NCBI GenBank assembly: GCA_018262855.1
Contig: JADFDO010000004.1
Span: 1 to 64,000 of the forward strand
Length of the DNA stretch: 64,000 nucleotides
Origin: Methanolinea sp.
Lineage (GTDB): Archaea > Halobacteriota > Methanomicrobia > Methanomicrobiales > Methanospirillaceae
Direction of reading: 5' to 3'
Numbering within the stretch: position 1 is the stretch's first letter; each line of letters starts with the position of its first letter. Under the pieces are notes generated by a model, which was given only the letters and a program-made list of their open reading frames with translations, had not been told where the DNA came from and made no database searches. Shown one piece after another: positions 36,174 to 56,871 of the stretch. Made by a program: the position numbers and the translations under genes.

Positions 36174-36182
36174 TATTTATAA
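36174..36182 (+). promoter_or_regulatory. TATA box of the repeat-protein gene
   Basis: TATTTATAA lies 24-32 bases upstream of the ATG at 36206, the spacing expected of an archaeal TATA box feeding a leaderless or very short-leader transcript. No Shine-Dalgarno sequence is seen between it and the start codon, consistent with a leaderless mRNA. Confidence 0.5.
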
Positions 36183-36205: not shown

Positions 36206-36586
36206 ATGAAAAAACCCATGCTTTGTATTTTGGCGTGCATTGTTGCCCTTTTCCTTGGCACCACATCGCCCGTGCTCGGGTATGACTTTTCTGCGAACAA
36301 TTACTTTGGCTCTTCCACCGGTGCGGGCCTCTTCAGCGGATACACACCCGGCAACTCATTCGGTGCTGACCTCTTTAGCGGGTATTCGCCGGGTAATTCT
36401 TTCAGTGCATATCCTTTCATGGAATATACCCCGGGCAGCTTCTTTGGTGCTGACCCCTTCAGCAGATCTACCCCGGGCAGCTTCTTTGGTGCTGACCCCT
36501 TCAGCGGATCTACCCCGGGTAGCTTCTTCGGTGCTGACCCCTTCAGCGGATTTACATCGAGAAATTATATTACACCTATGAACTGA
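36206..36586 (+). CDS. Secreted protein of 14-residue Phe/Gly/Pro repeats
   Basis: A 126-residue protein with a signal peptide (MKKPMLCILACIVALFLG, cleavage near residue 25). A degenerate lead-in (residues 26-45) is followed by five tandem units of 14 residues at 46-59, 60-73, 74-87, 88-101 and 102-115. The consensus is S/YTPGSFFGADPFSG. The last two units are identical, and the tail is 11 residues long. The repeats are rich in Phe, Gly, Pro and Ser with one Asp, suggesting a beta-rich, possibly aggregating or polymer-forming surface protein. No family is recognised. It has its own TATA box and no downstream partner before the convergent gene at 36653. Confidence 0.7.
   Translation: MKKPMLCILACIVALFLGTTSPVLGYDFSANNYFGSSTGAGLFSGYTPGNSFGADLFSGYSPGNSFSAYPFMEYTPGSFFGADPFSRSTPGSFFGADPFSGSTPGSFFGADPFSGFTSRNYITPMN
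36341..36550 (+). repeat. 42-bp coding tandem repeats, five copies
   Basis: Five 42-bp units encode the 14-residue repeats of the secreted protein. The three right-hand units are nearly identical in DNA, including synonymous positions, which points to recent duplication, whereas the left-hand two are diverged. Confidence 0.85.
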
Positions 36587-36652: not shown

Positions 36653-37993
36653 TTAGGTGGAAAGAGTACTGTTGCCGGTCATGCGTATCCAGTATCCCCT
36701 GAAAGGATAAACAGGATTCGCATCACTATGGCTTCCGGAACCATTCCTGACAATGGACACCTCATAGAACTGCAATGAGGAATCATACCCAATAACCTGG
36801 TCCCAGTGATCCAGGAGTGAACTGAGTGCCTCCCTGGCAGCAACCGGCTGTGCCGAGGCGAACCCGATCGAATTCCACCCTGTATAGAGTGGTTTTCCCG
36901 ACGGGCTCGGGGATGTCACGGAAGAATACATGAGCGATACGTACCTTGAATCGGCCGAGTAGATCCAGATTCCGTCCAGGAGATTCACCGTATCGCCATA
37001 TCTCAGTTGCGTCCATGCTCCAATCTCTCCATCGTAGGTGAAGATCGAATGGCCTTCCTTGTTCACCCCAGAAAATACGACATCCGCAGTGTTGTGCCCC
37101 TCGGCAAGTGCTTTCGGGACCGAGATGAAGTTCCATCCGGAGTGAAGGAGCATCTCGATCACCGGTTGGGTTGCGGTTGAGGTCGGGCTGGACGTCGCAG
37201 TAGTGGTAGTGGGGGTAGTAGTAGTAGTGGTAGTAGCAGGGGGAATAGTAGTGGTCGTTGTAGTAGTAGTTGTAGTAGTAGTTGTAGTAGTAGTGGTTGT
37301 GGTTGTCGCGGTAGTTGTGGGGGTAGTGGTGGATGTCATTGTAGTAGTAGTGGTTGTGGTTGTAGCGGTCGCTGTGGGAGTGATCCCATTTCCGACCTGG
37401 AGGGTCTGCGAAAGGGCGGTCTCCCCGTCCACCAGGATGGTAATCGCAACACTCCCTTCAGTCACCCCATTTACCACAAATGTGATCGCAGAATCTTCCG
37501 GGCCAGACTTGCCTCCCTGCAATGTCATGCTGGTCGTGATCGAGGTTACATCCTGGGTAGCATTACCACCCAGCGAGATCAGATCAAAAGTCCCTGATGG
37601 AATGGAACCCGAATCTGTGGTCGAATATACCCCACCCTGTGAGAGTCCCACTTTCTTCACCTCGGTACCACCCTTCCTGATAATGAGCTGGTTTGTCGAG
37701 GTATTCCAGAGCGTTGCGGAGAGGAATCCGTCGTTGAGGGAGAAGGGAAGGAAAAGGTTTTCGAGCTCGAACGAGAAGGTGCCCCCGGGAGTAGCTGCAA
37801 AGGTCCCCTGGATCTGTATCGAGAAGAGGCTTGTGTCAGGCAGATCGATGATTGAGATTGTGACCTGGTCCCCTTCATCGATCTGGTCCGGTGTGACCGA
37901 TATCGCGAGTGCTGACACATTCTGCGCAAGGAGCAGCAGACCACAGAGGAGACAGCACCGAAGAACCGTTACTGGTAAGGCCTCCCCGTCCAT
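36653..37993 (-). CDS. Secreted surface protein with poly-Thr linker
   Basis: A 446-residue protein. After a signal peptide (residues about 10-28) an N-terminal beta-rich domain (to about residue 205) opens with 'ISVTPDQIDEGDQVTISI', a form common in methanogen surface proteins. A run of about 70 residues, almost all Thr with occasional Pro/Ala, follows. The C-terminal domain (about 285-446) starts 'LLHSGWNFISVPKALAEG' and contains two 'GWNSIGF'-type strands, a domain seen in other Methanomicrobiales extracellular proteins. Thr-rich linkers are usual O-glycosylation targets in archaeal S-layer proteins. No C-terminal anchor. A TATA-like GATAAATAG lies about 25-30 bases upstream on the minus strand. 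Confidence 0.85.
   Translation of the reverse strand: MDGEALPVTVLRCCLLCGLLLLAQNVSALAISVTPDQIDEGDQVTISIIDLPDTSLFSIQIQGTFAATPGGTFSFELENLFLPFSLNDGFLSATLWNTSTNQLIIRKGGTEVKKVGLSQGGVYSTTDSGSIPSGTFDLISLGGNATQDVTSITTSMTLQGGKSGPEDSAITFVVNGVTEGSVAITILVDGETALSQTLQVGNGITPTATATTTTTTTTMTSTTTPTTTATTTTTTTTTTTTTTTTTTTTIPPATTTTTTTPTTTTATSSPTSTATQPVIEMLLHSGWNFISVPKALAEGHNTADVVFSGVNKEGHSIFTYDGEIGAWTQLRYGDTVNLLDGIWIYSADSRYVSLMYSSVTSPSPSGKPLYTGWNSIGFASAQPVAAREALSSLLDHWDQVIGYDSSLQFYEVSIVRNGSGSHSDANPVYPFRGYWIRMTGNSTLST
37166..37383. repeat. Low-complexity triplet repeat encoding poly-Thr
   Basis: An imperfect triplet repeat (GTA/GTT/GTG on the plus strand, ACx Thr codons on the minus strand) about 218 bases long encodes the poly-Thr linker. 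It is prone to slippage, so its length may vary between strains and could suffer assembly error. Confidence 0.8.
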
Positions 37994-38143: not shown

Positions 38144-38998
38144 GGGTAAAGTATCAACTTAGCCCCTAACTTTTCTCTAACAGTTGAATAATTCTCCGAA
38201 CCTTAATCCTTTCTGGGTCAGAACGGTGATTATATCTCCATACATATTCAGCGAGATATAGAGGAAGTTTCTCCCGGCGTATTCCTCCTTTTGAGGCAAG
38301 TTTGCGTTTCAGGTATCCCCAGAATCCTTCCAGTCCATTGATGTGATTCCCTTTACCATCGCTATATTGCCTCTCTCCGTGATTCACCAATCGATGAACA
38401 AATCCTCGAGATGCGATACCTGTGTATGCCCTCCAGGTATCAGAACAGACGATGGATCCAGGAGAGACCTGTCGGGTGATGAGAGGCTGCAGGGTGCCGG
38501 CCTCAACATCATTCACTACTTCAGCCCACACGGTTCCATTGCGACAAAGAATCCCAAACACTGGTTGCTTCTTTGTTCCTCTTCCTCGTTTGGTTCCCGA
38601 TTCCCGAATCGTTTTTCGTTTGTTTTTCCATTGACCTCCAAGATATGTTTCATCGACTTCAACCGTGCCTGAAAAGATATCAGGAACATCTTTGATCATG
38701 GTGAGTCGGATCCTGGTTAATGCTCTCATTACTCGTTGTTTATCGAACCCGGTCTGTTCTGAAATTGAATTCGAACTCTGTTCCATGAGAAACAGATGGA
38801 TGATTTCTTTCCATTCATCTCTTGAAAATGTCAGGGGTAATTTATGGGGAGTGAATTCGTACTTGCATCGCGCACAACGTCTCTTCCCATCACTCATTTT
38901 GTATAACTTTTTTGAATTGCATTTTAGACATGCAATTTTTGTCATTATTATCCCCGTAAATCATTCTTTATTCTAGGGGCAATAATAACACTTTACCC
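38144..38998 (-). mobile_element. Intact IS1595-family insertion sequence (855 bp)
   Basis: The element is bounded by 24-base imperfect inverted repeats: 38144-38167 and 38975-38998, which match at 'GGGTAAAG' and 'GCCCCT' with several mismatches between. ATCATTA occurs immediately outside each end (38137-38143 and 38999-39005), a 7-base target duplication in line with the short duplications of this family. Between them is a full-length transposase. The element sits in the intergenic region between the poly-Thr protein and the propeller/PKD protein. Confidence 0.85.
38166..38945 (-). CDS. IS1595-family (ISXO2-like) DDE transposase
   Basis: A 259-residue transposase. An N-terminal zinc-ribbon has 'CLKCNSKKLY' and 'RRCARCKYEF', the IS1595-type 'Cx2C' pairs. 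The catalytic acids are in 'VEVDETYLGGQWK' (D), 'IVCSDTWRAYTG' (D) and 'INGLEGFWGYLKRKL' (E), forming the DDE triad. The length is normal and no frameshift is present. The stop codon lies at the left inverted repeat. The gene likely drives mobility of the surrounding element. Confidence 0.93.
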   Translation of the reverse strand: MTKIACLKCNSKKLYKMSDGKRRCARCKYEFTPHKLPLTFSRDEWKEIIHLFLMEQSSNSISEQTGFDKQRVMRALTRIRLTMIKDVPDIFSGTVEVDETYLGGQWKNKRKTIRESGTKRGRGTKKQPVFGILCRNGTVWAEVVNDVEAGTLQPLITRQVSPGSIVCSDTWRAYTGIASRGFVHRLVNHGERQYSDGKGNHINGLEGFWGYLKRKLASKGGIRREKLPLYLAEYVWRYNHRSDPERIKVRRIIQLLEKS

Positions 38999-51469: not shown

Positions 51470-54400
51470 TCAACGCACAACGACACGCCGGGATGTCGTA
51501 CTCTCACCGATCGAATTTGTCACGGTAAGGGAGACCGAATACGTGCCGGGTTCAGTGAAGGTATTGACTGGGTTCCGGAGTGTTGACGTCTGGCCGTCAC
51601 CAAAGTCCCACTGCCATCCGGTCGGGCCGTTGAAGGATCGGTCCGTGAACTGAACGCTCATCGGAGAGGATCCAAAGGTCTTGTTCATAGCAAAGAAGCT
51701 GACCGGAGACCGGGTCGCCGGTCCCGGGGGAGTGGTAGGGGTAGTCGTAACGGAAGGTGTTGGCGTGGGTTGCGGGGTGTAGGGGGGGAACACCCTCGTT
51801 GGCCTCACCCAGACATATGACGTGAACGAATCGCTCCCGCCACTGTTGGATGCCGTCAGCCTTGTGATATACCTCCCGGCGGTGGCATAGACATGGGTCG
51901 GGTTCTGCTCTGAAGAGGTGTTCCCGTCGCCGAAGTCCCACTGCCATGCGATCGGAGAACCAGTCGAGCGGTCTGAGAACTTCACGGTAAGGGGGGCATA
52001 TCCCATCATGGGCGCTGTAGAGAAGCGGGCATCCGGAGGTTTACCTGATGGATCGACCTGTATATACCCAATCTTCGTGATTGACGCCTCACCTCCCTCA
52101 TTTCCGGCAATCAGAGATACGGAATAGGTGCCCGGGAACGAATACGTATGTGAGACACTGGATGTCTCATTCTCCCAGGCCGAAGTCCCGTCACCGAAGT
52201 CCCAGAACCTGGTGGTGATGATCCCGGTAGAGGTGTCTGTGAACATGACATCAAGCGGAGCATCGCCTGACAAAGGTGTAGCCTTAAAGTCCGGGTCGGG
52301 AGCAAGCGCCTGCGTGACATTGATATACCCGGATTTTGTAGCGCTGCCGGAACCAAACGCGCTGTTCACCGTCAGGGTGACGTTATAGAGGCCAGGATTC
52401 TCGTACGTGTGGTAGAGCCAGCTTCCGGTTCCGTTCGTTCCATCACCGAATTCCCAGATGAACTCGTCATAGTACCAGGCATAGGGAACGCTCTCCCAGA
52501 ATTCTACCTCGAGAGGAGCGTTCCCCTCATGAGGGTATGCGTTGAAATCCACATCGGGCGGCGGGGGGTTGACACGGATGTAGTCTTCCTTTGTGATGGT
52601 GTCGGTCTCGTTTGTCCTGCTGACCGTCAGGCTGACCGAGTAGTTCCCCGGGTACGTGTAAGTCACGACAGGATTTTTCTCGGAGGAGAACTCGTTGCCG
52701 TAAGTGGGAACTGCCTCCTTTGTCCCGGCGTCCCGGATCGGGTAATAGGAGTCCTTCTCAAAGACCCACGACCATGCACCAGGGTTTCCGGTTGAAGCAT
52801 CGCTGAACTGGACTGATACGGGCACGGTGCCACTGGTCACGTTTGATGAGAAGTCTGCCTTCAGGGGGGCAACATCGTGGACGACAACACAATCGTTCTT
52901 GCACAGTGTGCTCTCTCCCTCGCTGTTTACGACCTTGAGTGTCACGCTGTACGATCCGGCCGAGAGGTATTCGTGGACGGGGTTCTTCTCCGTCGAAGTC
53001 GCTCCGTCACCAAACTCCCATGAATAGGAAAGCGGCAGGGAGCCTGTCGACTGGTCAAGGAAACTGATGGAGAGTGGGGCATTCCCGTTCAGGGGAACGG
53101 CTGCAAAGTCTGCAATGGGCGGGATGATCTCGGTCCATGCGGTGTTGTTTACCCAGGTCTCATTGACAAGGCCGGTCATTCCGACAGTCTTTGTGCCGAT
53201 GGTGTAGCTCCTTGATTGAGTAAGCCCCGTGGCAGTATAGGACTGTATTCCTTTTGCCACGTCCTCCTGGTATATCCCGTCAAGGTATACCATCACGTGC
53301 GAGAGATCGGCTGACTGGGGATCGGTCCAGTTCCAGGTTATCCTGTCCATCTGGCTGGAGGTTGCATGGAGGTCGCTGACGCTTTCGGGAGGGATTTTGG
53401 GAGCGGAGCCGAAAGCATAGAGGTTGCCATCCCTGCTCCCGATATACACAATGCCTTCTGCAACGGCAGGGCTGGAATATATCTCGTCACCTGTCGTGTA
53501 ATTCCAGAGGTGTATTCCTGTTGTTGCGTCGAGTGCGTAGATGTTTTTATCATAACTCCCGATATAGACGACGCCGTTTGCTACTGCAGGGCTGGAATGA
53601 ATCGGGCCTCCTGTTGTATAATTCCAGATGAGCGTGCCCGTGTCCGTATCGAGAGCATAAAGATTGTAATCATCGCTGCCGAAATAGACGACACCATTCG
53701 CGACTGCGGGGCTCGAAAACACGGCATCGCCGGTCATGTAGTTCCAGAGGAGCGTGCCTGTGTCCGCATCGAGAGCATAGACGTTCCTGTCAAAACTCCC
53801 CACATAGACGACCCCATCCACGACCGCCGGACTGCAGTCTATGCTATCACCGGTCGTGTAATTCCAGAGGAGCGTGCCTGTGTCCGCATCGAGAGCATAG
53901 ACATTCCTGTCAAAACTCCCCACATAGACGACCCCATCCACGACCGCCGGACTGCAGTCTATGCTATCACCGGTCGTGTAATTCCAGAGGAGCGTGCCTG
54001 TGTCCGCATCGAGAGCATAGACATTCCTGTCAAAACTCCCCACATAGACGACCCCATCCACGACCGCCGGACTGGAATATACATAGTCCCCTGTCGTGTA
54101 GTTCCAGAGCAGACCTCCGGTTATGGCATCCAGGGCATAGACGTTCCCATCAGTGTTCCCGATGTAGACCACTCCGTGTGCGACTGCCGGGCTGGAATAG
54201 GTATAGTCCCCGGTCGTGTAATTCCAGATGTGCAATCCTGTTGCCGCATCAAGGGCATAGACGTTCTTATCACAGCTTGCACCATAGAGAACCCCATCCA
54301 CCACCGCAGGGCTTGACTCCACCCAGTCCCCTGTTGGATACTCCCAGATGAGATTCCCTGTTGCTGAATCGAGTGCATAGGTGTTGTAATCATAACTCCC

Positions 54401-56428
54401 GAAATAGACGACACCATGTGCCACCATGGCGGTTGACTCCACTTCATCCCCGGTGGTAAAGTTCCAGAGAAGCGTCCCATCCGGCCTTGTACCGCCGTCA
54501 TCGTACACGCCCGAGTTCTCAAGGTCCGATCGGAACTTCCATCCCTTGGAAGCCGGGATTGTCCAGGCGGTATCGGTCACCATGGTCTGGTTGATCTTCC
54601 CGTTCCTCCCGACCGTTTTAATCCCAATCGTGTAGGCTGTCTCCGGGGAAAGCCCGGTCGCGGTATAGGTCTCTGTCCCCTTCAGGACGACACGCTGGAA
54701 GCCCCCGTCCATGTATACCAGGACATGGGAGAGGTCATCGGTGGCAGGATCTGTCCACGTCCAGGTGATCGAGTCCTTCCCGCTGGTCGTGCTGTGGAGA
54801 TCGGTCACGCTCGCCGGAGGTTTTGTCTCGCCGGAGGATACCACCCAGACCTGGCACCCCGCATAGGGATTTGCGGTTCCTACGACTATCCCCTCCGGGG
54901 TGGTGAGCATCGTCCGGAACCCGTAGTTGTTCGGATCACCAAATCCGTTCAGATCGACAGGTATCCATTGTTCCCCGTCGGGGCTTCTCCAGAGGTCGGC
55001 ACCCCCGAACGTCTTTGCCAGGATCTTGATCAGGGGGATGATGTAGGATGGATCAACATTCCACTTTTGCATACTGGAGATCTCTGAAAGCCCCATCAGG
55101 AATGGCCCGGTTTCATGGGGCCATCCATCGTCTCCAGGAATCTCCCATGAAGAGAGTGCCTCCTTCAGGATCTCATACCCGCCTGGGACTTCATCGATAT
55201 ACTGGGCGAGGGAGAAGATATCGTAACTCCCGAGATACAGGTTCCCATCGTACTCTTCAAACGACCAGGCATAGAGGTTGAAGGGGTTTGCAAACCCGGA
55301 CGGCCAGCCGCTCAGGGCCGGATCACGGGGATCGGTGGGGATCTTTGGTTCCTCGTCCCCAACGATCAAGTCCCACGAGTCCCCCGCATTCACCCTTATC
55401 ACGTCGAATCCCTTCACTCCTTCGGTCCCGGTGGCGAACGGGAGGTTCATCGAACCGACGTAGAGGGCTCCCTGATACTCCCTCATCGTGCCTCCAAGGA
55501 CATTCCAGGCATCCCCGGCACCCCCTGAAACAACCCTGACCCAGTCACCCGAATTGGAGGGATCGGCAGTGGTGCTCCTCCACACCTCGAACCCGTTCGT
55601 CTCTGACGGCCCGATGGGGTTTCCCGTTCCTGCATACAGGTACCCATTGAAGCTCCTGAGTGCGGCGGTCTGGAAGTCGGCAACCTTCACCCACGTATCT
55701 GTAGTGGCGGAGGGAGAGGCGGATACGAAGATCCCGTCACCGGTCCCGACGTAAAGCTTCCCGTGGTGTGAGGTGATCGCACGGGTGTCCCGTGATAAGA
55801 TACCGTCCGTGTTCACCTTTTCCCAGTTCGTCCCATCGGTTGATCTGATGAGGAGCGTCCTTCCGAATCCGAACCCTACACCGGCATAGAGCGCTTCATT
55901 CCCGCTGGAGTCATTGAACGTGGCCATTGCACGGTACCCTATCCCTTCAGGGTAGGTGTACCCGTTCGAAGGATTGACAAAAGTGGGAGCCTGGTGCACC
56001 TGGGTCCAGAATCCCTCATGATACTTCCAGATCTCCCCGCTCATATCGTTCGACCATGCAACCGTCTCCTCCTGAGATGGGAGTGTATGGTTGGGAAGAA
56101 CGAGGGGTGGTGGAGGCGATCCTGCTGGGGTGGTCAGGAATGAGAGCGTCCAGTTTTCAGGGAATGCTCCCTGTGATTTCATTGCCTGGGCAACGAAATA
56201 GGGGATGTTCCGCCCGGTTCCCACGTATAGGTCCCCATCGAACTGGGCGACGGACCATGCATAATTGTTCTGGGGGTCCCCGAACCCTCCATCACTGATC
56301 ATTTCAAGCCTGGTGAATGCCGATGTCTCTTCCTCCGCTGCAGCGATTCCAACCAGGAGTGAGACTATGATGGCGAGTGCCAGGAACCAGATCCCCGTTA
56401 TCATTCTCGCGTTATTGTGGTGTTTCAT
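51470..56428 (-). CDS. Giant secreted propeller/PKD surface protein
   Basis: A 1,652-residue protein from ATG 56428 (upstream ATG at 56458 lacks a better site). A signal peptide (residues about 10-32) is followed by an N-terminal propeller-like region to about residue 560, an Fn3-like unit, then nine PQQ-type blades (each about 40 residues, with motif 'SSPAVVDGVVYVGS'), a second Fn3-like unit, and six PKD domains, the last preceded by a Pro/Thr-rich linker. The paralog at 39238 has eight blades. The blades contain an exact 120-bp duplication (53821-54060). The three PKDs at about residues 1310-1560 correspond in order to the whole PKD array of the 19958-21124 protein. Probably a surface or cell-cell contact protein; no anchor sequence seen. 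Confidence 0.9.
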   Translation of the reverse strand: MKHHNNARMITGIWFLALAIIVSLLVGIAAAEEETSAFTRLEMISDGGFGDPQNNYAWSVAQFDGDLYVGTGRNIPYFVAQAMKSQGAFPENWTLSFLTTPAGSPPPPLVLPNHTLPSQEETVAWSNDMSGEIWKYHEGFWTQVHQAPTFVNPSNGYTYPEGIGYRAMATFNDSSGNEALYAGVGFGFGRTLLIRSTDGTNWEKVNTDGILSRDTRAITSHHGKLYVGTGDGIFVSASPSATTDTWVKVADFQTAALRSFNGYLYAGTGNPIGPSETNGFEVWRSTTADPSNSGDWVRVVSGGAGDAWNVLGGTMREYQGALYVGSMNLPFATGTEGVKGFDVIRVNAGDSWDLIVGDEEPKIPTDPRDPALSGWPSGFANPFNLYAWSFEEYDGNLYLGSYDIFSLAQYIDEVPGGYEILKEALSSWEIPGDDGWPHETGPFLMGLSEISSMQKWNVDPSYIIPLIKILAKTFGGADLWRSPDGEQWIPVDLNGFGDPNNYGFRTMLTTPEGIVVGTANPYAGCQVWVVSSGETKPPASVTDLHSTTSGKDSITWTWTDPATDDLSHVLVYMDGGFQRVVLKGTETYTATGLSPETAYTIGIKTVGRNGKINQTMVTDTAWTIPASKGWKFRSDLENSGVYDDGGTRPDGTLLWNFTTGDEVESTAMVAHGVVYFGSYDYNTYALDSATGNLIWEYPTGDWVESSPAVVDGVLYGASCDKNVYALDAATGLHIWNYTTGDYTYSSPAVAHGVVYIGNTDGNVYALDAITGGLLWNYTTGDYVYSSPAVVDGVVYVGSFDRNVYALDADTGTLLWNYTTGDSIDCSPAVVDGVVYVGSFDRNVYALDADTGTLLWNYTTGDSIDCSPAVVDGVVYVGSFDRNVYALDADTGTLLWNYMTGDAVFSSPAVANGVVYFGSDDYNLYALDTDTGTLIWNYTTGGPIHSSPAVANGVVYIGSYDKNIYALDATTGIHLWNYTTGDEIYSSPAVAEGIVYIGSRDGNLYAFGSAPKIPPESVSDLHATSSQMDRITWNWTDPQSADLSHVMVYLDGIYQEDVAKGIQSYTATGLTQSRSYTIGTKTVGMTGLVNETWVNNTAWTEIIPPIADFAAVPLNGNAPLSISFLDQSTGSLPLSYSWEFGDGATSTEKNPVHEYLSAGSYSVTLKVVNSEGESTLCKNDCVVVHDVAPLKADFSSNVTSGTVPVSVQFSDASTGNPGAWSWVFEKDSYYPIRDAGTKEAVPTYGNEFSSEKNPVVTYTYPGNYSVSLTVSRTNETDTITKEDYIRVNPPPPDVDFNAYPHEGNAPLEVEFWESVPYAWYYDEFIWEFGDGTNGTGSWLYHTYENPGLYNVTLTVNSAFGSGSATKSGYINVTQALAPDPDFKATPLSGDAPLDVMFTDTSTGIITTRFWDFGDGTSAWENETSSVSHTYSFPGTYSVSLIAGNEGGEASITKIGYIQVDPSGKPPDARFSTAPMMGYAPLTVKFSDRSTGSPIAWQWDFGDGNTSSEQNPTHVYATAGRYITRLTASNSGGSDSFTSYVWVRPTRVFPPYTPQPTPTPSVTTTPTTPPGPATRSPVSFFAMNKTFGSSPMSVQFTDRSFNGPTGWQWDFGDGQTSTLRNPVNTFTEPGTYSVSLTVTNSIGESTTSRRVVVR
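53821..54060 (-). repeat. Exact tandem duplication of a 120-bp propeller blade
   Basis: Bases 53821-53940 and 53941-54060 are identical. A third copy to the left (53701-53820) matches its right half with a single substitution. The 120-bp unit encodes one 40-residue blade. Perfect identity, including synonymous positions, marks recent duplication, expansion by slippage/recombination or gene conversion. Confidence 0.9.
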
Positions 56429-56871
56429 AGATGCCCCCCTTTCGGTCAGGGGTGGCAATTGTAGGGGGAGATTCAGGGGCCCGGGTTGTTCGTCTATTCC
56501 TGGGTTTGTGAGAGTGGGATCCCCGGAGTGAGTGATTGTGCCGGTTCACAGGGATCTGAACTGAGCTCCAACCGCATGGCTCTCAAATCGTGTGCCCTCC
56601 CCGGTTCGATGAGAGAGGATCTCAGCCGTAGACCACCGGTGTCCAAGACCTCAGTCTTCGTCTTAGGTACCTCTTGCCTGCCCCTGATTCGTTCTGTGCC
56701 ACCTTGACCGAAAACAGGTAAATGGTACTCTCATTATACCAGTATATAAAACTTTTTGTGCTCCGTGGGCTATATGGCCGTAAAATGCCACAAGGCTCCT
56801 CTTCCACGGTGTTTTTTCAAAAATCTCACGGGAGATTCGAGCCACTGACGGTAAAAAAAAGAATGTACGTG
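56429..56871. other. Intergenic region upstream of the giant protein
   Basis: About 443 bases between the giant surface-protein gene and the small membrane gene at 56872, both on the minus strand. A TATA-like element at 56742-56751 is the only suggestive feature. No open frame with a plausible start was found. Confidence 0.4.
56742..56751 (-). promoter_or_regulatory. TATA-like element, possible promoter of the giant surface protein
   Basis: The minus strand reads TTTTATATAC here, a near-consensus archaeal TATA box, about 310 bases upstream of the ATG at 56428. If used, the transcript would have a leader of about 290 bases. There is no plus-strand gene nearby, so orientation toward the giant gene is likelier. 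Low confidence. Confidence 0.3.

Follow-up and report, generated by a model that had tools for sequence, protein, structure and literature searches.

One point of comparison for the protein reported here is SH (MspA), the protein of the tube-like archaeal sheath, known from Methanospirillum hungatei (PMC6242892, PMC10593813 and PMC11576556, cited throughout from extracts of these papers). SH is exported, occurs in the same lineages and is encoded by genes that adjoin those of relatives of our protein. Its members are of about 280-380 residues, with conserved cysteine and a published beta-sheet core; in the extract of PMC11576556 this core consists of two six-stranded beta-sheets and a cap domain. 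In contrast, our protein has a 101-residue repeat part with no match to SH. Phenol-soluble polypeptides account for ~20% of M. hungatei sheaths and their removal costs rigidity (PMC6242892, extract), and extra densities are described on the sheath interior near the plug (PMC10593813, extract).

A second point of comparison is provided by curli CsgA and the chaplins, bacterial functional amyloids with imperfect repeats (PMC6242892, extract), which like our protein are small, secreted and rich in Gly, Ser and Asn. The likeness is one of description: the amyloid units are of 19-41 residues against 14 here, and a low-confidence model of our protein contains no beta structure.

The repeat-protein gene

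The gene, termed type A, occupies positions 36206..36586 (+) of the window, the 64,000-nucleotide stretch of Methanolinea sp. DNA that was analysed. It encodes 126 residues from ATG to stop, as given by the ORF call and by an orthologue in the sister species Methanolinea sp. UBA275 (G003; the window genome is G000). Residues 1-25 (36206..36280, +) form a signal-peptide-like segment, assigned from hydrophobicity, with a helix predicted at residues 4-20 and a resemblance to the N-terminus of a relative in G006. One degenerate unit precedes five full 14-residue tandem units of the type YTPGSFFGADPFSG, rich in Phe, Gly, Pro and Ser, at residues 46-115 (36341..36550, +; units 1-5 at 36341-36382, 36383-36424, 36425-36466, 36467-36508 and 36509-36550). 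Tandem Repeats Finder, run on the window, returned a period of 42 with 5.6 copies at 36319-36555 (score 241). The C-terminal tail (36551..36583, +) includes TSRNYITPMN, ten residues that are identical in G003. The layout given in a preliminary description of this DNA, five 14-residue units behind a signal peptide, was thus confirmed.

A TATA box, TATTTATAA, was located at 36174..36182 (+), where it would direct a start at the ATG or beside it. Its end lies 24 nt before the ATG, and in the G003 orthologue the same box is found at the identical position, the flanking bases having diverged. Leaderless genes are common in archaea. The conserved position of the box fits a leaderless transcript and supports the earlier suggestion that the gene has its own TATA box and a leaderless-looking start.

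The mature protein (~101 residues) is 24% aromatic and 50% Gly, Ser, Pro and Asn, has six acidic and two basic residues and a pI of 4.1, and contains no Cys; N-glycosylation sequons are absent from the protein. With so few basic residues it would call for a protease other than trypsin, such as chymotrypsin, in mass spectrometry, which could account for proteins of this kind having been overlooked. No match was obtained in Pfam, NCBIfam or PHROG, and the best PDB match (E 0.1) was to transporters and started in the signal segment, in line with the earlier statement that the protein is without known family. An AlphaFold model calculated from a two-sequence alignment had a pLDDT of 43 and, with no strands, showed little beyond the signal helix. 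A low-confidence model of this kind is compatible with disorder but, from so shallow an alignment, proves little. The repeat part probably has no stable monomeric fold.

Along its full 126 residues the G003 orthologue shows 79% identity, and it has five units and the same tail. The two genes differ at 75 nucleotides, distributed 12/15/48 over first, second and third codon positions, and the dN/dS ratio, ~0.15 for the whole gene, is 0.06 within the repeats; the two other forward frames contain stops in both genomes. The third-position bias, the dN/dS and the equal length and unit number indicate a real, selected gene, and on this comparison of sequences the ORF is a genuine conserved coding gene under purifying selection.

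Pairwise comparison of units 3, 4 and 5 gave 2, 2 and 4 differences in 42 nt, which bears out their reported near identity in DNA. At third positions they show 0-2 differences among themselves, against 3-5 to their G003 orthologues. The recent expansion proposed from this similarity was half right: comparison between the species gave five units in the window lineage and five in G003 and thus no expansion, and what looks recent is that units 3-5 became homogenised along the window lineage at unchanged copy number. The other parts of that interpretation (a real, secreted-looking protein with a TATA box and no family) stood.

Relatives and sheath-protein genes

Homologous repeats were searched for in close relatives and were found. 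The close form (type A) is present in two of 13 genomes of the genus, the window genome included; elsewhere in the searched genome contigs it was found at one distinct place, in G003. Reading of weak matches gave a further form, type B, comprising 14-residue YTP-repeat proteins in G001 (C104) and G007 (C11). These are 68% identical to each other and about 32-35% identical to the window protein, the identities of the G001 protein to the two members of type A being 32 and 35%. A profile built from type B alone recovered the type A copy of G003 (E 1.5e-6), and the window copy was not recovered at 0.01. As a control, the repeat columns were permuted 1000 times with period and composition kept. The A-B scores were reached by 2/1000 and 0/1000 permutations against G001 and by 15/1000 and 16/1000 against G007, and the unit order YTPxxxFGxxPFSG was found to be common to the family beyond period and composition. 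This comparison of sequences supports a shared descent of types A and B.

The third form, type D, is the repeat protein of G006 (C45), with a 23-residue period and the core PFGGYTP. It is the syntenic counterpart of type B. Its signal segment is like that of the window protein (score reached by 0/1000 shuffles), and the A-D repeat scores are weaker, being reached by 15 and 57 of 1000 permutations. Types B and D share with the window protein a signal-like N-terminus, YTPxxxF units of 14 residues (in G006 the PFGGYTP core on its 23-residue period), a TATA-type leaderless-looking start and a pI of about 4, and the mature part is without Cys in those relatives for which it was computed. In a phylum-wide draw of 392 genomes, a four-protein A/B profile matched three genomes, all of this genus; since the same profile misses the G006 relative, absence outside the genus is unproven. 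Searches of viral contigs with types A and B gave no relatives. Weak matches of the first search in G007 (C119), G009, G049, G053, G071, G073 (a long VGSGV repeat), G087, G096, G102, G107, G110, G115, G162, G062 and G003 (C64) were rejected as unrelated or out of frame. The YTP-repeat proteins thus form a narrow family, new among secreted repeat proteins; of the papers listed in literature searches, none describes such proteins in its title or in the opening of its abstract.

In G001 and G007 the type B gene directly follows that of a secreted protein of about 325 residues, homologous to secreted proteins adjoining repeat genes in G080 and G083. The G073 member of this neighbour family has 377 residues from a GTG start and a mass of 40.5 kDa, with D43, K363, C257 and C271. 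For SH of M. hungatei JF-1, the extract of PMC6242892 gives 377 residues, 40.6 kDa and C271, with one cysteine counted, and that of PMC10593813 gives two cysteines, Cys257, D43 and K363; the G073 sequence has two cysteines, against the one of PMC6242892 and the two of PMC10593813. The agreement in length, mass and four residue positions identifies the neighbour family as SH. Comparison of the SH profile with the PDB gave nothing useful, so the identity rests on length, mass and the four published positions. We take G073 to be M. hungatei JF-1 or near to it.

The gene order in G006 and G007 is CbiQ-type transporter, Kelch/PKD protein, SH, YTP-repeat protein, HemK-like methyltransferase (the CbiQ and HemK names were assigned from the sequence without a family search, Kelch/PKD from a family search). 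In G001 the cassette is present up to the contig end. Ten regions around the HemK-like gene were compared (G000, G003-G011). Seven genomes (G000, G003, G004, G008, G009, G010 and G011) have CbiQ and HemK without the Kelch-SH-repeat cassette, and in G005 CbiQ is absent at the HemK site. The SH, repeat and Kelch genes are thus present or absent together at this site. Two small secreted-looking proteins of about 100 residues, without repeats, are encoded and conserved between the CbiQ-type and HemK-like genes in G000 (C11, L232, 6900-7942) and in G003 (C37, L233, 3756-4982), which indicates that small exported proteins are common there. Between SH and the repeat gene of G006 (C45, L240, 6903-7429), partial broken HemK-like copies show signs of duplication. 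In G002 (C21, L113) and G001 (C104, L079) the contig stops at SH or just past the repeat gene; such loci seem prone to assembly breaks, and repeat genes may be under-counted.

The types B and D genes lie directly downstream of an SH gene (G001, G007, G006), unlike the window gene, which has no SH gene adjoining. No SH gene was found in the window, and a Methanospirillum-type SH profile gave no match to its ORFs. A search of the whole window genome located SH at five places (C26:137786, C29:83822, C6:19984, C6:22183 and C17:7201), the nearest of which, C26:137786, is about 101 kb from the window gene. The convergent neighbour (36653..37993, -) encodes a secreted-looking protein of 446 residues with a Thr-rich stretch and no Pfam family. 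This gene and those that follow (PQQ/PKD protein, cupin-like, Lon-like) are syntenic in G003, where the type A copy starts 210 bp from the contig end and its upstream neighbours lie beyond the sequence. Low-complexity tandem repeats coding for Thr were observed at 37199-37381 within the neighbour gene. A transposase-like ORF (38166-38945; type assigned from the sequence) lies between the Thr-rich and PQQ/PKD genes and has no match in the syntenic G003 stretch. Further along the window, a 120-bp tandem repeat of about seven copies (53472-54307) was observed within a 1662-codon ORF (51470-56458, -).

A TPR lipoprotein of about 570 residues was observed near SH genes in many Methanolinea genomes, the window genome (C6, L133) among them, and in G032 (loci L133, L118, L121, L122, L123, L125, L126, L137, L141, L143 and L147). 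It is a candidate sheath assembly factor. Those compared from SH clusters of Methanolinea and G032 are 38-85% identical. The TPR protein encoded beside the Methanospirillum repeats shares only 23-29% identity with these lipoproteins, and TPR genes are also present in control regions; both weaken a link to the repeats, which was left as a lead.

Other short-repeat families and their distribution

Two further groups of short secreted tandem repeats, some of them beside SH, were compared: FNSSEIGTMQNSQK of Methanospirillum (genus g13, named through the identification of G073), which shares the 14-residue period, and TPSSGKTFDDVFKAP of Methanolinea, with a period of 17. The examples computed are 8% and 12% aromatic and have N-glycosylation sequons, the window protein being 24% aromatic and free of sequons. 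The FNSSEIGTMQNSQK repeats were found in eight of 232 genomes of the order. They adjoin SH genes in G076, G080 and G083, form gene pairs beside a Trm5-like and a TPR gene, with no SH there, in G073 and G077, and lie beside a Trm5-like gene in G084. The G073 pair is located at C1:3489371-3489826 and C1:3490198-3490632, and most of its repeat units contain a Lys. The 17-residue family was found in 14/232 genomes of four genera. Its genes adjoin SH genes, or fragments resembling SH, in G002, G005, G006, G007, G009, G010 and G011, a fragment ends a contig holding SH in G001, and in G003, G004, G014, G015, G032 and G095 no SH gene lies within the fetched stretch (some being short contigs).

The permutation test did not support homology between type A and the Methanospirillum repeats, whose scores were reached in 178 and 270 of 1000 permutations, nor homology to the 17-residue family. 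The shared period of 14 is not evidence of descent, and from their sequences both families are probably unrelated to that of the window protein. A Methanospirillum-type match in G057 (765-residue frame, E 3.7e-4) was left out of the counts. Pfam names falling on Methanospirillum repeats (among them motilin/ghrelin, Zap1 zinc finger and DUF1601) were set aside as repeat artefacts, each match spanning 10-12 residues.

Forty SH-centred regions were scanned, two of which (L130 and L138, chosen partly for repeats) were dropped to leave 38. The control set comprised 60 regions, taken for the most part from the starts of contigs in six genomes and holding 344 secreted ORFs in 768 kb. Secreted short-repeat genes were present in 7/38 SH-chosen and 1/60 control regions; the p value of 0.005 is optimistic, since the 17-residue loci are orthologous and non-independent, the control set is mostly of contig starts and L112 was picked for its repeat-adjacent-like SH. 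The sole control match is a pilin-like low-complexity protein with an antisense frame, and p is 0.0009 if it is discounted.

SH was found in 53/232 genomes and in 13 of 40 genera. The three repeat groups united cover 23 genomes, all of them SH-bearing: five with types A, B or D (G000, G001, G003, G006 and G007), eight of g13 and fourteen with the 17-residue family. All five repeat-bearing genera are among the 13 of 40 with SH (p 0.002). The 13 SH genera all belong to one family of 17 genera, within which the same count has p 0.21, so the distribution agrees with a sheath connection without proving it; phylogeny at the family level could give the pattern by itself.

Possible role in the cell envelope

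The reading we favour, as a serious possibility short of a probable one, is that the window protein contributes to the cell envelope as a minor structural polypeptide and associates with the SH sheath as a hoop filler, a glue or part of the end plug. The window gene is tied to the sheath only through its homology with the SH-adjacent types B and D; the link of the family to the archaeal sheath is indirect but specific. The earlier guess at a surface polymer gains the same indirect support from the adjacency of the G001, G007 and G006 homologues to sheath-protein genes, and gains none from the window gene's own position relative to SH.

For the window protein we infer that it is exported and disordered, that it associates physically with the sheath and that it serves as filler or glue. 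Its mature part would consist of a sticker-and-spacer motif of 14 residues, repeated in a short tandem array, with Phe/Tyr and Pro as stickers and Gly, Ser and Asp as spacers. The repeats may bind several SH subunits, or one another, through Phe/Tyr-Pro contacts, and could fill the seams between hoops or help to form the plug. As it contains no Cys, the protein would take no part in the network of disulfides that has been proposed for SH.

It is also possible, if somewhat doubtful, that the protein is secreted as a low-complexity component of the envelope or of a matrix (in contact with the S-layer, in the extracellular matrix, or in adhesion to syntrophic partners) and is not specific to the sheath, the adjacency of some relatives to SH reflecting a clustering of genes for exported proteins. 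The Thr-rich and PQQ/PKD genes around the window gene, the lack of SH in the window and the other small secreted proteins in the same variable CbiQ-HemK site of G000 and G003 would all be expected from such clustering. It accounts less well for three separate SH contexts with such genes (the type B/D cassette, the Methanospirillum SH-SH-repeat arrangement and the 17-residue family in SH clusters), or for the 344 secreted ORFs of the control regions, among which no comparable protein was found.

A secreted peptide precursor or decoy with fast repeat turnover, bacteriocin-like or directed at envelope-binding viruses, is unlikely. The patchy occurrence of the close form, the divergence of forms between species and the homogenised repeats would suit it, but the repeats are under strong purifying selection (dN/dS 0.06), no genes for processing, immunity or export were recognised beside the window gene, and no relatives were found in viral contigs or phage families. 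A spurious frame over a DNA tandem repeat is barely credible, for even though a 42-bp repeat keeps all frames periodic and another forward frame is open for 113 residues from an inner start, the codon-position pattern of divergence, the same length and stop in G003, the stops in the other forward frames and the conserved TATA box all speak for the gene.

Returning to the association with the sheath, we put forward tentatively, as something that may well not hold, a wider proposal: short secreted repeat proteins with units of 14, 17 and 23 residues, belonging to several unrelated or very diverged families, would form a recurrent accessory class of the SH sheath. They would act as fillers, glue or plug parts, undergo repeat turnover, travel with SH as cassettes and correspond to the minor sheath and plug polypeptides.

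The issue addressed is which components other than SH build the sheath, join its hoops and form the intercellular plugs. In the extract of PMC11576556, genomic context yields no suggestion for sheath assembly or plug proteins. As the 2024 survey names no accessory sheath protein from genomic context, the repeat genes are testable candidates, and they make up a short list that includes two adjacent genes in G073, the genome taken as M. hungatei JF-1.
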